Below are positions 416 to 32,013 of a stretch of 34,011 nt of DNA, piece by piece (within the stretch, counting starts at the first letter, position 1; each line of letters opens with the position of its first letter). The notes below the pieces were generated by a model. That model had not been told where the DNA came from and ran no database searches. It saw nothing but the letters and a program-made list of their open reading frames with translations. The position numbers and the translations under genes are program-made. Source of the stretch: a virus. The stretch covers positions 1-34,011 of IMG/VR virus record IMGVR_UViG_3300031857_000719. One strand, written 5' to 3'.

Positions 416-1084
416 ATGGAAGAGAAAGAACTCGAAGCATTGAAAGCCTCGAACCCCAAGGCCTACGAATTCATCGTCAGCCAGAAGGGCGAGCTGGAGA
501 AGCTGAAAGCTGCGCCACCGAAGAAAGACGATCCGCCGGCGCCGCCCGCTCCGAAGAAAGACGATCCGGATCTCCTCGACAAGGTGCGGGCGAAGAACGA
601 GTCCGACGAAAAGGAAAAGGCGAAACTCAAGGGGATCGAGTCCGCGATGCGGTTCAATCTCTCGATTGGGGACTTCGTGAAGGCGAATGCGGACGTGCTC
701 CCCTCCGACGTGGAGAAGGTAATCAAGGAAGCGGAGAAGGAAAACTACGACTCCGCCGTCGAGCGAGCGCGCGCCTTGAAGGTGCCGATTATCAAGGCGT
801 TCTTCGATGTGCAGGCGAACCTGGAGCTTCTGACCGACACGCAGAAGACGCAGCTTGGGGACTATCAGAAGCTGACCAAAGCGGGCCGCGAGGAGCGCGC
901 GGACTACATCTACGAGAACCTTTTGGAGCCGGCGTTGGGTACCATGAAAAAGCTCAAAAAAGCCGAAGAGGTCGGTAGAGCGCGCTCGGGCTTGGCCCCG
1001 GGTGGCAAGGCCGAAGAGGATTACAGGAACCGCCTCGTCGAGGGTTCGCGGAAATTTTATCTCGGCGACAAGGGAGCGCAGTAA
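416..1084 (+). CDS. Putative capsid scaffold protein
   Basis: A 222-residue, very charged Lys/Glu-rich protein with a Pro/Lys-rich linker at about residues 33-52 (two PPKKDD/PKKDDP repeats) and predicted long helices elsewhere. There is no enzymatic motif. Scaffolding proteins of tailed phages typically are charged, helical, and encoded just upstream of decoration and major capsid genes, as here. The ATG has an AAGGAG site shortly upstream. I infer that it nucleates and shapes procapsid assembly in the cytoplasm; sequence similarity to a named scaffold family was not recognised. It could alternatively be another minor head component. Confidence 0.62.
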   Translation: MEEKELEALKASNPKAYEFIVSQKGELEKLKAAPPKKDDPPAPPAPKKDDPDLLDKVRAKNESDEKEKAKLKGIESAMRFNLSIGDFVKANADVLPSDVEKVIKEAEKENYDSAVERARALKVPIIKAFFDVQANLELLTDTQKTQLGDYQKLTKAGREERADYIYENLLEPALGTMKKLKKAEEVGRARSGLAPGGKAEEDYRNRLVEGSRKFYLGDKGAQ

Positions 1085-1113
1085 ATAGCCGCACAATCGT
1101 AGGATAAATTTTG

Positions 1114-1169
1114 CGAGTACGCGGGGGTTGCTCCCCGTGAGGCCCAAGGGCCGATAACTCACGTACTCG
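1114..1169 (+). ncRNA. Compact three-way-junction RNA element in the head operon
   Basis: Bases 1114-1121 (CGAGTACG) pair perfectly with 1162-1169 (CGTACTCG). Directly inside, 1122-1126 pair with 1133-1137 (CGGGG/CCCCG, loop about UUGC). Then 1138-1140 pair with 1159-1161 and GGCC at 1141-1144 pairs with GGCC at 1149-1152, with a GAUAAC bulge at 1153-1158. The three helices meet with no unpaired bases at the junction. It lies in the 179-bp gap between the scaffold-like and decoration genes, 18 bp upstream of an intrinsic terminator. I do not recognise it as a known RNA family. Function is unknown; expression control of capsid genes is one inference. Confidence 0.6.
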
Positions 1170-1187
1170 AACCGGGCCTTCAGAGTT

Positions 1188-1231
1188 AGAGGGCGCATCG
1201 CGAGAGATCGCGGGGCGCCCTCTTTTTTTTT
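1188..1231 (+). terminator. Intrinsic terminator between scaffold and decoration genes
   Basis: AGAGGGCGC (1188-1196) pairs with GCGCCCTCT (1215-1223), with a further CGCG/CGCG pairing inside, followed by a run of nine T from 1223 to 1231. In addition, 1172-1178 (CCGGGCC) can pair with 1234-1240 (GGCCCGG), enclosing the terminator. It would attenuate transcription between early head genes and the decoration/capsid genes. Confidence 0.85.
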
Positions 1232-1263
1232 GGGGCCCGGAAAACTTTCAAGGAGAAAGCGAA

Positions 1264-1710
1264 ATGCACGACGCGACAAAGCACGCTCTGGGAACGACGA
1301 AGGGACCCGGTAAGCCGACGGTCACGAACCACAAGGGAGCGGCCGTCATCACGGCAGGCCTCGCCGTTCGCCTGAAGAGCGACGATACGCCGGCCGTTGC
1401 GACGGGCTCCGGCGTGGGAGAGTTCCTCGGCATTTCCTTGGGCCGCGATCTCTCCGACACGGGCCGCACCGCCGTTTGCCGCGCGGGCTTGGGCGTGCCG
1501 CTCAAACTCGCTTCCGGCGTGACGCCGGCGCCAGGCGAGACGGTGTACATCGTCAACGCCACCGGCGAGGGCCACAACTCGGCGGACGCGGCTCGCACGG
1601 CGACGGCCGCCATCTACGCGTCCGCGAAGCTTACGACCGGCGGCATGGCGGAAGGCGAGAGCTCGGGCACCGTCGATTTCGCATACGTCGACATGGTCGG
1701 GGGGCTCTGA
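1264..1710 (+). CDS. Decoration-like head protein 1
   Basis: A 148-residue protein, Gly/Ala/Thr-rich with alternating hydrophobic residues that suggest beta structure and no membrane segment. It is paralogous to the next gene: both start with a HDA(T/S)K block, share GISLGRDLSD / GVSLGKALSD followed by TAVCR, and end in VDMVGGL / VDMGGGL. Pairs of this kind just upstream of the major capsid gene resemble DUF2190-type capsid-stabilising or decoration proteins. An AAGGAG site precedes the ATG. Its TGA overlaps the next ATG (TGATG). Role inferred from position and composition. Confidence 0.65.
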   Translation: MHDATKHALGTTKGPGKPTVTNHKGAAVITAGLAVRLKSDDTPAVATGSGVGEFLGISLGRDLSDTGRTAVCRAGLGVPLKLASGVTPAPGETVYIVNATGEGHNSADAARTATAAIYASAKLTTGGMAEGESSGTVDFAYVDMVGGL

Positions 1711-2794: not shown

Positions 2795-3676
2795 ATGACG
2801 ACGCAAGCACCCGTTCTCCGGACCGCCGAAGAGTTCAACCGGACCTACGTCCCCATCTACAAAGCGATCTTCCCGCTTTTCATCAACGAGAAGGCCCAGC
2901 AGTACGCGGCCGAAGTGGGAAAGCTCAACTTCAACACCGTCGAAGCGGTGGGGGATCTCGACGCGAAGGAAATCACGCCGAAGGATTCGGACATTCAGAC
3001 CGTCTCGGTCGTCGAGGGGCTGAAGGCTTTCCGCAAGTACTTCCTGGCCAGGAAGTACCGGAACTCCTCGCTTCAGGATGCTTCCCGCATCGACCTCGTC
3101 ATCTCCCAGGTGCTCGACCACAACCTGAAGCTGCAAGACAAGCTTCTCCTTTTGGGCGGCGGCACGACTCCCTCGAACGTACTGAACAACGGGCTCTTCC
3201 TGTCCGGTGACCCGAACTTCACGCTCGAAGGGGAGACGGCGGAGATCGCGGTCTCGGGGGATCTCCCGGATCTCGCGGACTTCTGCCGCAAGGTCATGGC
3301 GACGGCCGACAAGGCCGACCAGGTCGCGGGCCGGAAGCTCATCATCTTCTACGGTGAGGAAGTGATCCCGTCGTTCACCTCACTCTTCGACACCGGTGTC
3401 CGATCGGTGCGAGGGGCGCTTCAGGAAACGCTCGGCGCCGAGTACTCGATGGCGAAGCTGCCGCAGGCGGTAACTCCGGACGGTGAATCGGGCTGGATCA
3501 TCGCGAACCTCGATCAGTGCAAGCTGCACTACACGGAGCTTCCGAAGCTTCTGGCGCAGGGCGTGAACGAGGAAGACCTCTACACCTGGCACAACGTGAT
3601 CATGGGTTCGATGATGCTCGAAGTGCTCGCGAAGGACGGCATCATCCGTCAGCCGGCGGAGCTCGAGAGCGAATAA
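2795..3676 (+). CDS. Major capsid protein
   Basis: A 293-residue protein with the size, position and texture of an HK97-fold major capsid protein: a helical N-terminus, an early beta region rich in charged residues (the expected E-loop area, about residues 45-95), then alternating helices and strands and a C-terminal half containing SVRGALQETLGAEY. It sits immediately upstream of a strong terminator, with its own AAAGGA ribosome site. No other gene in the head block is a better candidate. The assignment rests on gene order and overall character. Confidence 0.75.
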   Translation: MTTQAPVLRTAEEFNRTYVPIYKAIFPLFINEKAQQYAAEVGKLNFNTVEAVGDLDAKEITPKDSDIQTVSVVEGLKAFRKYFLARKYRNSSLQDASRIDLVISQVLDHNLKLQDKLLLLGGGTTPSNVLNNGLFLSGDPNFTLEGETAEIAVSGDLPDLADFCRKVMATADKADQVAGRKLIIFYGEEVIPSFTSLFDTGVRSVRGALQETLGAEYSMAKLPQAVTPDGESGWIIANLDQCKLHYTELPKLLAQGVNEEDLYTWHNVIMGSMMLEVLAKDGIIRQPAELESE

Positions 3677-3697: not shown

Positions 3698-3733
3698 ACC
3701 CCCGCAGGTCCGAGAGAGCCTGCGGGGGTTTTT
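3698..3733 (+). terminator. Intrinsic terminator after the major capsid gene
   Basis: CCCCCGCAGG (3699-3708) pairs with CCTGCGGGGG (3719-3728), extended by A3698/T3729, with a 10-base loop and a TTTTT tail. It separates the highly expressed capsid gene from the connector and tail genes. The 3' arm (GGGGG) lies where the ribosome site of the next gene should be, so the hairpin may also mask translation initiation of that gene. Confidence 0.92.
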
Positions 3734-18300: not shown

Positions 18301-18360
18301 GTCTATTTCCGAAGGGTAGAGGGCCTACTGAGCGAGGCTCGTTTCGAGAGGTAGAGGTCT
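18293..18360. repeat. Possible integrase arm-binding repeats
   Basis: AGGTAGAGGTCT occurs at 18293-18304 and 18349-18360, with a variant AGGGTAGAGGG at 18313-18323 between them. They flank the core and reach into the end of the integrase gene. Direct repeats beside a tRNA-derived core fit arm-type sites of a tyrosine integrase. Confidence 0.5.
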
Positions 18361-19317
18361 GCGCGGCTTCGCCCGCGTGCGGCCGCGCCGCCGGCGATCG
18401 CGCATAGTCGCGCTCGCCCGGTGCAGGTCGCTCGGGCCGAGCCGCTCGTACCACTCGCGCACGATCTTCTCGCTGTTCCCGAGAATTTTCGCAGTCGCGG
18501 ACATGCTCGCACCACGGCGAAGCATCCAGGTGGCGCATGTGATCCTGAGGTCCGCCCACCGGCACCTCACCTTCGCCCGGCGCTTGCACGCTTGCCACGC
18601 CGTCTTGTGGTCGCGCTTCGCTTTGTTCAAGTCGTACCGACTCGGGAAAACCTGGTCCGATTGAGCGTTGAACATTCGCTTCCTGCACTTCGGGTAGAGG
18701 TCCGCGTTGAGCGGCACGTCGCGCGGCCGGCCGGTCTTCCTACTGACGATTCGAACCATCCGCCGTTCCCAATCGAAGTCGGTCCACTTGAGGCCCAGGA
18801 GCTCCCCGCGCCGAAGCCCCATCTTGAGCGCGAGCTCGATCATAAATTTGAGCTCGGCGCCCGCTGCGCGAAGAAGCTTCTTCACCTCGACGGGTAGGAT
18901 CTCTCGGCCGACCGATCCCTTTGCGTCGGGCATTCGTAGAAACGGCCGCCGGTCGATGTATCGACGCTGCTCGGCGAGGCGCAGGATCATCGTCATGTAC
19001 TTCTTGTCATCGAAGAACGTGCAGCCCGGAAGCTTCGCCTGACGGGCGACGATGTACGAGCTCCACTCGGCTTCCCCGATTTCGGTGATCCAGTAGCCAC
19101 CGAAGTGCGAGGTCAGTCGAGGAACGATATGCCGCGCGAGCGCGTAGGTGCCCGGCGCGCACTTCTTCTTCTTCTCGAGAACGTCACCTGCCAGTGCCGA
19201 AAAACGCGCGTTCGGTTTCCAGAACAGGGAACGGATCCACTTCCAAACGACGAGCAACATACCCGCGACAACATGTGCAAGCCTGCGACCGCCGGCAGCC
19301 GAGAAAAGAATCGACAC
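18325..19317 (-). CDS. int: Tyrosine integrase with substituted catalytic positions
   Basis: A 330-residue site-specific recombinase. The core-binding part spans about residues 38-130; the catalytic part follows. Visible motifs: KMGLRRGELLGLKW (Arg I, R169), VSRKTGRPRDVPL (Lys, K194), WADLRITCATWMLRRG (Arg II, R258) and ILGNSEKIVREWYERL (Tyr nucleophile, Y290). In the HxxR box the usual His is Ala255, and the later His/Trp position is Asn281, both departures from the family norm. attP with tRNA-Val sequence lies just beyond the stop. Two starts are possible, GTG 19317 and ATG 19260; neither has a strong ribosome site. The first about 30 residues are hydrophobic and may not be translated. Confidence 0.85.
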   Translation of the reverse strand: MSILFSAAGGRRLAHVVAGMLLVVWKWIRSLFWKPNARFSALAGDVLEKKKKCAPGTYALARHIVPRLTSHFGGYWITEIGEAEWSSYIVARQAKLPGCTFFDDKKYMTMILRLAEQRRYIDRRPFLRMPDAKGSVGREILPVEVKKLLRAAGAELKFMIELALKMGLRRGELLGLKWTDFDWERRMVRIVSRKTGRPRDVPLNADLYPKCRKRMFNAQSDQVFPSRYDLNKAKRDHKTAWQACKRRAKVRCRWADLRITCATWMLRRGASMSATAKILGNSEKIVREWYERLGPSDLHRASATMRDRRRRGRTRAKPRRPLPLETSLAQ

Positions 19318-21643: not shown

Positions 21644-22033
21644 ATGAAAGCAGTACCGCCGTCCGCCGCCGCCCCACAGTATTCGGCAGCGGACATTGTG
21701 CAAATCCTCGAGCGCGCGAAAGCGCTCGGCGTGCGCCAGCTCAAGCTCGAAGGCTTCGAGGCCAGCTGGGACATCCCGCAGTTGCCGCCCGTGTCGGCCG
21801 CCGCTCCGCCGATGGTCGACGACGGCGCAGCCGGCGGGTACCGCGCGCCGGCGGCCGCGCCGCCGCCACCACGCGCGGACGGCCCGCGCGAGAACGTGCG
21901 TCTAGTCAAAGAGTGGTGCCCCGACTGCCGCAGCCAAATGGAGCTCGGCCGCTGGGACAAGCCCTACTGCAAGCGCTGCTACATGGAGAAGAAAGACCGC
22001 GAGCGGCAGAGCTATGGCGGAGGACGGCGATGA
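21644..22033 (+). CDS. Pro-rich protein with C-terminal zinc ribbon
   Basis: A 129-residue protein. N-terminal helix (ADIVQILERAKALGVRQLKL), an Ala/Pro-rich linker (residues 50-80) and a C-terminal zinc ribbon (EWCPDCRSQMELGRWDKPYC, then KRCYMEKKDRER). It starts 3 bp after the exonuclease gene. The domain layout suggests protein or nucleic-acid binding in recombination or replication, but no family is recognised. Confidence 0.62.
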   Translation: MKAVPPSAAAPQYSAADIVQILERAKALGVRQLKLEGFEASWDIPQLPPVSAAAPPMVDDGAAGGYRAPAAAPPPPRADGPRENVRLVKEWCPDCRSQMELGRWDKPYCKRCYMEKKDRERQSYGGGRR

Positions 22034-24160: not shown

Positions 24161-24472
24161 ATGGCAAAGAAGAATCTCGAGAAGCAGGCGACCCGGGCGA
24201 AGGAAGTTCTGGACGGCATTGAGGCGAAGACGGCCGAGCGGAAGGGGCTCTACGAGGAGCTGGACACGCTCATCGTCGGTTTCGCCGCGGTCCCCGCTGA
24301 GGAGCTCGCGGCGCACGGCCTGGTCGTCACCGACGCTTTCGCGAAGGGCAACACGCAGTGGGGCCACGGGCCGGTGCGACGGCTTTCGCTCGAGCGCATC
24401 GAGGCGCCGGCGGCGGCCGCGACGGAGAAGCCCGCGAAGAAGCCGCGCGCGAGCGCCGATAAGAAGGCGTGA
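24161..24472 (+). CDS. Small protein coupled to a serine recombinase
   Basis: A 103-residue protein with a helical N-terminus (KKNLEKQATRAKEVLDGIEA, then KTAERKGLYEELD), a central mixed part and a Lys/Ala-rich basic tail (EKPAKKPRASADKKA) like those of DNA-binding accessory proteins. AGAGAGG precedes the ATG. Its stop overlaps the GTG of the recombinase (GTGA), so both are made together. The family is not recognised. Confidence 0.6.
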   Translation: MAKKNLEKQATRAKEVLDGIEAKTAERKGLYEELDTLIVGFAAVPAEELAAHGLVVTDAFAKGNTQWGHGPVRRLSLERIEAPAAAATEKPAKKPRASADKKA

Positions 24473-25053
24473 AGAAGCTCGCCATCTACTCCCGCACGTC
24501 GACCGACAAGCAAGACACCGGCCTCGAGGCGCAGCAACGGACGCTGCGCGACTGGTGCAATGCGAACGGGCACAAGAAGTATCTCGAGTTTTCGGACGCC
24601 GGCGTCTCGGGAATGAAATCGTCGCGGCCCGAGTTCAACCGCATGATGGCGGAGGTCCGCGCAGGCGAGATCGGGACCGTCCTCGTGTACTCGTTCTCTC
24701 GCTTCGCGCGCAGCACGAAGCATCTCATCGAGGCGCTCGAGGAGTTCAATCGGCTCGGCGTCGCGTTCATCTCGAAGACGGAGCAGATCGACACGTCGAC
24801 TCCGATCGGGAAAGCGATGTTCACGATCATCTCCGCGATGGCGCAGCTCGAGCGGGACCTCACCGCGGAGCGCGTGAAGAACGGGCTCAGGAACGCCGTC
24901 GCGAAGGGGAAGCGGCTCGGTCGCCCGAAGACCGCGGGCAAGAAGGCGCGGAAGGTACGGCTGCTGCGCGCCGGCGGCGCCGCGCCGGAAGCGATAGCCG
25001 CGGAACTCGGCGTGTCGCGCGCCAGCGTTTACCGGATGCTCAAAGCGGCGTAG
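24469..25053 (+). CDS. Small serine recombinase (resolvase/invertase)
   Basis: A 194-residue protein with the full layout: IYSRTSTDKQDTGLEAQQRT (catalytic Ser11), YSFSRFARSTKHL (conserved Arg block), then FTIISAMAQLERDLTAERVK (E helix), GKRLGRPKTAGKK linker and a C-terminal helix-turn-helix (APEAIAAELGVSRASVYRML). It could resolve multimers of a circular genome or invert a segment. The nearby inverted repeat cluster at 25282-25348 is a candidate recombination site. Together with a tyrosine integrase it gives the phage two recombination systems. Confidence 0.9.
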   Translation: MKKLAIYSRTSTDKQDTGLEAQQRTLRDWCNANGHKKYLEFSDAGVSGMKSSRPEFNRMMAEVRAGEIGTVLVYSFSRFARSTKHLIEALEEFNRLGVAFISKTEQIDTSTPIGKAMFTIISAMAQLERDLTAERVKNGLRNAVAKGKRLGRPKTAGKKARKVRLLRAGGAAPEAIAAELGVSRASVYRMLKAA

Positions 25054-25906: not shown

Positions 25907-25934
25907 TTGACAATGTATATACATTAGCTATAAT
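25907..25934 (+). promoter_or_regulatory. Toxin-antitoxin promoter with palindromic operator
   Basis: A perfect TTGACA (25907-25912), 16-bp spacer and perfect TATAAT (25929-25934). The spacer contains AATGTATATACATT (25912-25925), a perfect 14-bp palindrome, a typical operator for ribbon-helix-helix antitoxins. The ATG of the toxin follows the -10 by six bases, so the transcript should be leaderless. Confidence 0.88.
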
Positions 25935-25940
25935 AGTCTC

Positions 25941-26216
25941 ATGGGCGTGACGTTGAAATCCTGGGGCGAGCGGAAAGCGAGCTGGCTCGCGGAGAACGGA
26001 CGCCCGACCTTCGAGCAGGTCCTCGAAGCCATCGCCGAGGGCGGGCTTCTCGATATCCGAGACAACAACACGCACGCGGACCGCAAGATTTTCGTCGTTC
26101 GGATTGCGGGCAAGATCCACGCGGTGCCGGTGATTCCCCTTACGAATGGCGAGTACCAGGCGACGACGGTTTTCCCATCGAAGAAACTGGAAAAGGAATT
26201 TGGAGGTAAAACGTGA
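25941..26216 (+). CDS. BrnT/DUF4258-like toxin
   Basis: A 91-residue protein. The pattern FEQVLEAIAEGGLLDIRDNN, then RKIFVVRIAGKIHAVPVIPL and TTVFPSKKLEKEF matches a BrnT-like family of RNase-type toxins in which strands KIFVV and HAVPV and the terminal PSRKA/PSKK block are conserved. The toxin precedes its antitoxin, as in brnTA. The transcript appears leaderless and there is no ribosome site. It probably blocks translation when the antitoxin is lost and may help maintain the phage or exclude others. Confidence 0.8.
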   Translation: MGVTLKSWGERKASWLAENGRPTFEQVLEAIAEGGLLDIRDNNTHADRKIFVVRIAGKIHAVPVIPLTNGEYQATTVFPSKKLEKEFGGKT

Positions 26217-26536
26217 AAGCAAAATCGAAACTCTCGAAGGAAGAGCGCATCCTCGAAGCGTCGTTCGCGGAAGGAAACTGGAAGAGCGCCGGCAAAGCCG
26301 AAGTCGAGCGCGTCCGCCGGGGCGTGAAGGCTCAGCTCGAAAACGCGAAGAAGGATACGCAGGTCAACCTGCGGCTACCATCGGAGCTTGTCGAGCTTGC
26401 GCGCGCGGGAGCCGCAAAGCACGGCATGCCCTACCAGACACTCATCGCGAGCGTGATCCACAAGTTCTTCACCAACCAGTTCGTCGAGCGGGAGAAGTGG
26501 GAGGAGTTGCTTGATCGGGTGTCGAAGGCGTCGTAG
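26213..26536 (+). CDS. CopG/BrnA-like antitoxin
   Basis: A 107-residue protein. The N-terminal half (SKEERILEASFAEGNWKSAG) carries the toxin-binding WKS block seen in this antitoxin family; the C-terminal half is a ribbon-helix-helix domain (DTQVNLRLPSELVELARAGA, then HGMPYQTLIASVIHKF). It should neutralise the upstream toxin and repress the shared promoter by binding the palindrome at 25912. It overlaps the toxin gene by 4 nt. The next 201 bp contain no gene; an imperfect hairpin AAAGGGA/TCCCTTT near 26636-26667 could be a weak terminator. Confidence 0.85.
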   Translation: MKAKSKLSKEERILEASFAEGNWKSAGKAEVERVRRGVKAQLENAKKDTQVNLRLPSELVELARAGAAKHGMPYQTLIASVIHKFFTNQFVEREKWEELLDRVSKAS

Positions 26537-26737
26537 CCCCGCCCTTGAGCGGGCCAGCCACCGCGCCAGGAGTGCCAGGCCGTAGGACGGGGAGCGGAGT
26601 TTTGAGCGTGTCTTCATAGGATCGATGGTGCGGCCAAAGGGACAGACCGCACCGGGGACCTCCCTTTTTCTGCTACGGGCCGGCACTCGGCGGCCCCACC
26701 CCTGGTCGCGGTCCCTCCGCCGGGCGACAATGGGGGT

Positions 26738-30456: not shown

Positions 30457-32013
30457 GTGGCGAAGGGGGAGAAAACAGGGGGCCGCGACTTTCCGCCCGG
30501 CGTCAGCGGGAACCCCGCCGGCCGCCCGCCCGTGTCTGCGGAGCTACTGACCGCACGGCTACTCACCCACGCCGAGGTCCGGCGCATCGCGAACGAGCTC
30601 CTGGAGAAGTCGAAGGAGGAGCTTGCCGAGATCCTCAAAGACCGGCGCACGCCCGCGCGCGTCGCCATCTTCGCGAGGCTTATAAAGTCTGCCATGTGGT
30701 CCGCAGATCCCCGCCGCGTCGCCTTCCTCCTCGACCGCATTGTCGCTGCGAACGAAGCGGCGGGAGCGAGCGTCGCCGCGGCTGGCGCCCCGGAGGGCGA
30801 GAAAACCTTCGAGGCGTTCTGCGAAGCGGCGGGGTACCCAGCACCCTTCCCGAAGCAAGTCGAGATGATGCGCTTCGGGATGGAGGAGACGGTGCCGCGC
30901 TTGCTTCTCGGAGCGCCTGGCTACGGGAAGACCGACTACGTGGTGATTGCCGGCGTCGCCTACGACATCTACCGGAACTACCGCGAGGGACGCCACGCCG
31001 ACAAGGAGACGGCATCCACCACGCTGCTCATGTCGAAGTCGACGGAGCGGAACAAGGCGCTCCTCGGTGAAGTCGCCGAAGCGCTCGCGAAAAACGGTGT
31101 ACCCATCGGCGTGAACAACGCCGCGGCTGTGAGTGTCGCGGGGCTCGCCGGAAAGGAAGCGTCGCTCTCAGCTCTCACGATAAAGGCCGTCTCTCTTCGC
31201 GGCCGTCACCCGCGTCGCGCCGTCATGGAGGACGTCGTCACCGAGGACGACACGAGCGAGGCGACGAGAAAGCTCGTCGAGAAGAAATACTCGGAGCTGA
31301 TGAAACGCACCCAGAACGTTCTCGTCCTGGGACAGCCCGTGCACAAGTTCGACCTCTACGAGACGCTCCGGCCGATTCTGAAAAAGCTCGAGGTGCCGCA
31401 CGGGTCGATTCCCGAGCTCGACTGCGACCTGGAGGCGTTGAAGCTTGCCGGCGTTTCGTGGGAATCGATAAGTGCGAGCTATCACCTCAAAGTCGTCTCC
31501 CACAGCGGCTTTCCTTTCGAGGGCATCCAGCGGCTACCCACTTTTCTCCCCTGTGACTCGGCCACGGCCTTCATCGATCCGAGTTCCATGGGACGGGACA
31601 CGACGGCCCTTTCTTGCTTCAAGGGGCACTTCCACGGGATTGCTGTCGAGGGCCACGCATGGAAGCGCTCGTGGGATCAGTGCCTCGATGAAATGATCCC
31701 AATTCTCGTTCGGAACCGAGTCAAAAAGCTCTGCTTCGAATGCAACGCGTTGGGCGAGCAGCCGGTACTTCTACTGCGCCAGGCGCTGAAGGCTCACGGC
31801 ATTGGCGTCGTGGGAAGGTTCTCGTCAGGCCACAAACACTCTAGGATAATGGCAGCAGCTCCCTACGCCGCGAAAATCTTCATGACCGAAACCTCCAACG
31901 AAGCGTTCAAGACGCAGGTTCGAAAGTACGAGCACGGCTCTGAGCCTGACGACGGCCCCGATTCCATGGCGACCGGCATGGAGTGGATGGGCCTTATCCG
32001 AGGGAAACGCTGA
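30457..32013 (+). CDS. Terminase large subunit with fused DUF5681-like N-terminus
   Basis: A 518-residue packaging motor. Residues 12-30 (FPPGVSGNPAGRPPVSAEL) are the signature of DUF5681, and the following helices to about 100 complete that domain. The ATPase part has Walker A GAPGYGKT (152-159) and a Walker B-like RRAVMEDVVTEDD (253-265). The RNase H-like nuclease part has D374 in FIDPSSMGRDTTAL, E428 in KLCFECNALGEQ and D502 in PDDGPDSMATGMEW. It cuts and pumps DNA into the procapsid. No separate small terminase gene is evident, so the N-terminal domain may do DNA recognition. The GTG has GGAGG five bases upstream. Confidence 0.88.
   Translation: MAKGEKTGGRDFPPGVSGNPAGRPPVSAELLTARLLTHAEVRRIANELLEKSKEELAEILKDRRTPARVAIFARLIKSAMWSADPRRVAFLLDRIVAANEAAGASVAAAGAPEGEKTFEAFCEAAGYPAPFPKQVEMMRFGMEETVPRLLLGAPGYGKTDYVVIAGVAYDIYRNYREGRHADKETASTTLLMSKSTERNKALLGEVAEALAKNGVPIGVNNAAAVSVAGLAGKEASLSALTIKAVSLRGRHPRRAVMEDVVTEDDTSEATRKLVEKKYSELMKRTQNVLVLGQPVHKFDLYETLRPILKKLEVPHGSIPELDCDLEALKLAGVSWESISASYHLKVVSHSGFPFEGIQRLPTFLPCDSATAFIDPSSMGRDTTALSCFKGHFHGIAVEGHAWKRSWDQCLDEMIPILVRNRVKKLCFECNALGEQPVLLLRQALKAHGIGVVGRFSSGHKHSRIMAAAPYAAKIFMTETSNEAFKTQVRKYEHGSEPDDGPDSMATGMEWMGLIRGKR

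Follow-up and report, generated by a model that had tools for sequence, protein, structure and literature searches.

Why does a phage carry a strongly folded stretch of non-coding DNA, ending in a strong transcription terminator, between two head genes that abut in its relatives? The question is raised by the IMG/VR virus record IMGVR_UViG_3300031857_000719, of which a stretch of 34 kb with 63% G+C was analysed (positions 1 to 34,011, here called the window). It encodes a tyrosine integrase (18325-19317, minus strand), the terminase large subunit TerL (30457-32013) and a RecE-like exonuclease, and the phage is temperate and dwarf-myovirus-like. Its head genes are about 37-46% identical to those of the Bdellovibrio phages phi1402 and MAC3UK; several IMG/VR contigs and one contig from a metagenome-assembled genome (MAG) are closer, with up to 62% identity in the sheath-like protein.

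Two other parts of the window deserve mention. Besides the tyrosine integrase, a serine recombinase or DNA-invertase-like protein is encoded at 24469-25053 (PHROG 125 and 95, E about 1e-55). A consensus sigma70 promoter (TTGACA-N16-TATAAT, 25907-25934) heads a two-gene cassette (25907-26667), in which the gene for a 91-aa protein without known family (25941-26216) is followed by one for a CopG/BrnA-type antitoxin-like protein (26213-26536), and which is closed by a terminator-like hairpin (26636-26667). This cassette resembles a toxin-antitoxin moron, the toxin role being assigned from position only.

Gene order at the junction

Upstream of the non-coding stretch lies a scaffold-like gene (416-1084, plus strand), whose 222-aa product has homologues in 17 relatives, with 26% identity in Dulem virus 29 and 37-53% otherwise. 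The protein has no PHROGs or Pfam match and is called scaffold-like from its position and composition only. Downstream follow two decoration-like genes, so named from their position. The product of the first (1264-1710, plus strand; 148 aa) is 37-47% identical to its counterparts in relatives and about 42% identical, across the first 80 residues, to the product of the second (1710-2519). Judging by sequence, the pair is a tandem duplication, and most relatives likewise carry two copies in tandem. The major capsid protein (2795-3676, plus strand) is 42.5% identical, across 97% of its length, to the 'putative major capsid protein' of MAC3UK; among the head-gene names, it alone is backed by an annotated homologue. 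An earlier reading made from the sequence alone, hereafter the sequence-only reading, had placed the structured element between scaffold and capsid genes. The scaffold-like neighbour stands, whereas the gene directly downstream is decoration-like and the capsid gene begins only at 2795.

In all 16 relatives measured (phi1402, MAC3UK, 13 further IMG/VR contigs and the MAG contig) the gap between the scaffold-like gene and the gene downstream amounts to -8 to +3 bp, as opposed to 179 bp (1085-1263) in the phage studied here. The two genes are adjacent as well in the 17th relative, Dulem virus 29 (L004). Absence from the same junction in relatives, a criterion for morons, is thus what the comparison returned. 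No DNA similar to the insertion was present in the relatives' records tested, and inspection of the plus strand of the gap revealed no open reading frame of note. The downstream gene of most relatives has its ribosome-binding site within the last part of the scaffold-like gene. An SD-like AAGGGAG is retained before the stop codon of the scaffold-like gene in our phage, and a second ribosome-binding site, AAGGAG, is found within 1249-1263 on the plus strand, ahead of the start at 1264; the insertion has therefore left the downstream gene translatable. The insertion at positions 1085-1263 is real and private to this phage; it is non-coding, folds strongly and contains a strong terminator.

Two neighbouring reading frames were noted in passing. 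An 85-aa protein encoded between the decoration-like and capsid genes (2519-2776) carries an N-terminal domain of the Rho termination factor N-terminal type (PF07498, E 1.2e-7), and the short genes that relatives have at this place look different. A minus-strand open frame of 400 codons (77-1279) covers the scaffold-like gene and almost the whole insertion; judging by its G+C pattern across codon positions, it resembles an antisense shadow of the real gene.

Predicted RNA structure and terminators

The sequence-only reading had described three perfectly stacked helices without junction loops in a 56-base segment. Folding of this segment (1114-1169, plus strand) recovers the helices: P1 comprises 8 bp (1114-1121/1162-1169), P2, which abuts P1 directly, 6 bp with G-U as the last pair (1122-1127/1132-1137), and P3 4 bp formed by GGCC and closed by the loop CAAG (1141-1144/1149-1152). 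Perfect stacking was not recovered. The third-helix closing pairs of the loop-free version (UGA[G]/[C]UCA, 1138-1141/1158-1161) reach a probability of 1-6%, and the predicted junction contains linkers of 3 nt and 9 nt. Complementarity between the loops of P2 and P3 (UUG/CAA) extends over 3 bp only.

By itself, the 56-nt junction folds with -27.2 kcal/mol (z -3.40, 1 of 200 shuffles); once 29 nt of the native 5' flank are added, the z score is only -1.54. The complete 127 nt (1114-1240) attain -77.7 kcal/mol and a z score of -7.45, with none of 200 shuffles as good, and this value is owed mostly to the terminator and the outer helix. A descriptor of the three-helix shape matches exactly one site on both strands of the 34 kb, and order-1 Markov shuffles give 0.23 sites per strand, a rough guide only since the descriptor was fitted after the site had been seen. 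The shape by itself is therefore not rare genome-wide; what is rare is its place in a 179-bp gap beside a terminator. At 21772-21911 the minus strand, antisense to a predicted gene (21644-22033), gives the most stable 120-nt RNA fold anywhere in the window (-80 kcal/mol).

The terminator with nine T and the enclosing 7-bp pairing of the sequence-only reading are both borne out. The intrinsic terminator (1188-1231, plus strand) consists of an interrupted 15-bp stem with a GAGA loop, followed by T9 at 1223-1231, and its stem (1188-1223, -28.4 kcal/mol) is the strongest in the window. The outer pairing joins CCGGGCC (1172-1178) to GGCCCGG (1234-1240) on the plus strand; when 21-mers of this genome are paired at random, about 2% of the pairs attain 7 bp. 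Its 3' arm exists in read-through RNA only, in which a long interrupted duplex (1172-1240) is predicted just 5' of the ribosome-binding site. The 5' arm has a second possible partner in the P3 sequence, and the region is thus predicted to be bistable. In RNA ending at 1231, pairing of the P3 sequence with 1172-1178 is favoured by about 2 kcal/mol, a margin inside the error of the energy model, and P1 is predicted at about 7%. When the RNA extends to 1240, prediction favours the three-helix form as ground state. Co-transcriptional folding could trap this form, which would already be complete at 1169.

A second strong terminator (3698-3729, plus strand; -26.2 kcal/mol) is situated directly 3' of the capsid gene. 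Terminators occupy the same place in phi1402, L007 and L039 and are thus recurrent in this phage group; the MAC3UK sequence has the same post-capsid hairpin together with a run of T. Before the decoration-capsid block, no terminator occurs in any of the relatives.

A weak sigma70-like promoter box (TAAATA-N17-TAAATT, 1082-1110, plus strand) precedes the three-helix segment. It matches the consensus at 3/6 and 4/6 positions, ranks 16th among plus-strand hexamer combinations under an approximate weight matrix and is unreported by a stricter scan. The box sits in an A+T-rich stretch: positions 1085-1112 contain 64% A+T, a value that only 0.7% of the 28-mers of this genome reach.

Homologue searches

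The window yielded no Rfam match at the gathering threshold, self-cleaving ribozymes and phage pRNA included, and chance-level matches only at E up to 10. A blastn comparison of the insertion with phages and plasmids returned just 24-28-bp chance matches (E 2-7). In 193 genomes around the MAG of L011, only 19-44-bp pieces were found, each covering a short part of the query, with a best E of 1.2e-4 per genome. A covariance model, which has little reach as it was built from one sequence, found nothing in the same 193 genomes. The sequence-only reading had proposed that such a model be searched for in phages with similar head operons; among 25 sources it recognised no site but this one, apart from a weak match to its own reverse strand. 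Because no search produced a homologue, there is no sign of selection on the fold, and in the sequences searched a function of the fold has no evolutionary support so far.

Several candidates were set aside. The IMG/VR pattern GTGAGG-N-CCGATAACTCAC gave a single match, antisense to a coding gene and with a z score of -0.18, which was judged to be chance, and two further IMG/VR patterns gave no match. A hammerhead-like core suggested by eye was dropped on account of a misfitting linker and the lack of an Rfam match, and an integron attC site, likewise suggested by eye, because the box consensus did not fit. Phage phi29 pRNA, about 120 nt long, also contains a three-way junction. The RNA predicted here resembles it in this and in approximate length, and differs from it in having no Rfam match, in belonging to a phage with a TerL packaging system and in being located between head genes.

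Discussion

The best reading of the locus, with a little under an even chance of being right, is that of a non-coding, moron-like cassette which was inserted between abutting head genes and releases a terminated RNA of about 115 nt. Polymerase would stop at about 1231 and free a structured RNA that either was initiated near 1115-1117, at the foot of P1, from the weak promoter box or was processed out of the upstream transcript at its 3' end. Once released, the RNA would function as a small RNA, and the cassette would be a kind of moron with an RNA product in place of a protein; late transcription would continue past the terminator, allowing the decoration and capsid proteins to be made. As to the packaged small RNA of the sequence-only reading, the release of a terminated RNA is plausible, whereas its packaging would be speculative. 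The original definition of a moron was that of a complete transcription unit inserted in a phage genome (PMC6316719). Like them, the present element is inserted between genes that abut in relatives, in a temperate phage as marked by the integrase, and combines an intrinsic terminator with a weak promoter-like box; unlike them, it has no open reading frame of note on its plus strand, and its promoter is putative. Small RNAs at moron sites have a precedent in the lambdoid prophages of EHEC, where AsxR and AgvB, 51-60 nt long and Hfq-bound, are located near PR' (PMC4104026). Compared by features, the predicted RNA shares with these its shortness, an intrinsic terminator with U tail and a phage insertion site, whereas, if made, it would be about 115 nt long, more structured and encoded between head genes.

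Several observations argue for such a cassette: the insertion is private, it contains the phage's strongest terminator, which has a U9 tail, its plus strand lacks a notable open frame, the A+T-rich promoter-like box stops at 1110 just 5' of P1, and at least one further cassette of this phage has a consensus promoter of its own, along with a CopG-type antitoxin. Against it stand the lack of any homologue in the sequences searched and hence of a sign of selection on the fold, the weakness of the promoter box, from which transcription would start 1-3 nt within P1, and the low predicted share of the three-way fold in terminated RNA. A more far-reaching version, in which an RNA-only moron with its own promoter and terminator is expressed from the prophage as a self-contained three-way-junction small RNA with a fold outside the known RNA families, is rather unlikely.

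The released small RNA has a close rival in an element that acts in cis only, as a terminator or processing site, without any free small RNA that has a function; we regard this explanation as quite possible, though short of probable. The terminator would then trim transcription into the decoration/capsid block or end the terminase-portal-scaffold mRNA, whose 3' end the structure would shield. The duplex 1172-1240 of the read-through RNA would constitute a barrier or an RNase III site fixing the 5' end of the capsid mRNA. The model of the read-through RNA is compatible with the proposal of the sequence-only reading that this may be an RNA-processing site; the outer helix is confined to read-through RNA and the ribosome-binding site is free just 3' of it. 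Furthermore, the decoration-capsid block lies between the terminators at 1188-1231 and 3698-3729, which are stronger than all others of the phage, and terminators after the capsid gene occur repeatedly in relatives. In SPP1 the late gene clusters are bounded by terminators and late promoters have not been identified (PMC6316719). The element shares with SPP1 and with the post-capsid terminators of the relatives a strong intrinsic terminator in the head operon, but it is located before the capsid block and has structured RNA 5' of it. On the other hand, to place a strong terminator ahead of the protein that is most abundant in the virion appears costly, and the relatives lack one there. The distance from 1231 to 1264 is too short for a promoter, so that capsid expression must depend on read-through; no antiterminator protein was recognised among the open reading frames tested, most of the early genes being without known family.

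It is unlikely that the insertion is a terminator-bearing scrap, in which the three-helix part has no selected role and is tolerated since read-through suffices. Its confinement to one contig, the frequency of the shape in shuffled sequence and the modest z score with native 5' flank would all fit such an origin. They have to be set against the compactness of the gap, the fresh ribosome-binding site, the order of A+T-rich box, fold and terminator, and the difficulty of retaining a strong terminator by accident. Attenuation, with coat or scaffold protein, as the sequence-only reading had suggested, or another ligand toggling between terminator and antiterminator folds, is very improbable: the region is indeed bistable at 1172-1178, but this switch leaves the terminator untouched, the terminator stem has no upstream complement of at least 6 nt and its pairs form at a probability of 1.0 regardless of the upstream fold, so that mutually exclusive terminator and antiterminator structures, and with them the classical form of attenuation, are not supported.

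If a discrete RNA is made from the moron-like cassette, phage head operons can accept RNA-only cassettes besides protein-coding ones, and comparison of junctions among related phages, with abutting genes on one side and one large gap on the other, would be a simple way to find them. If the element acts in cis only, the phage offers a natural case of a strong terminator before capsid genes and prompts one to ask how transcription gets past it.
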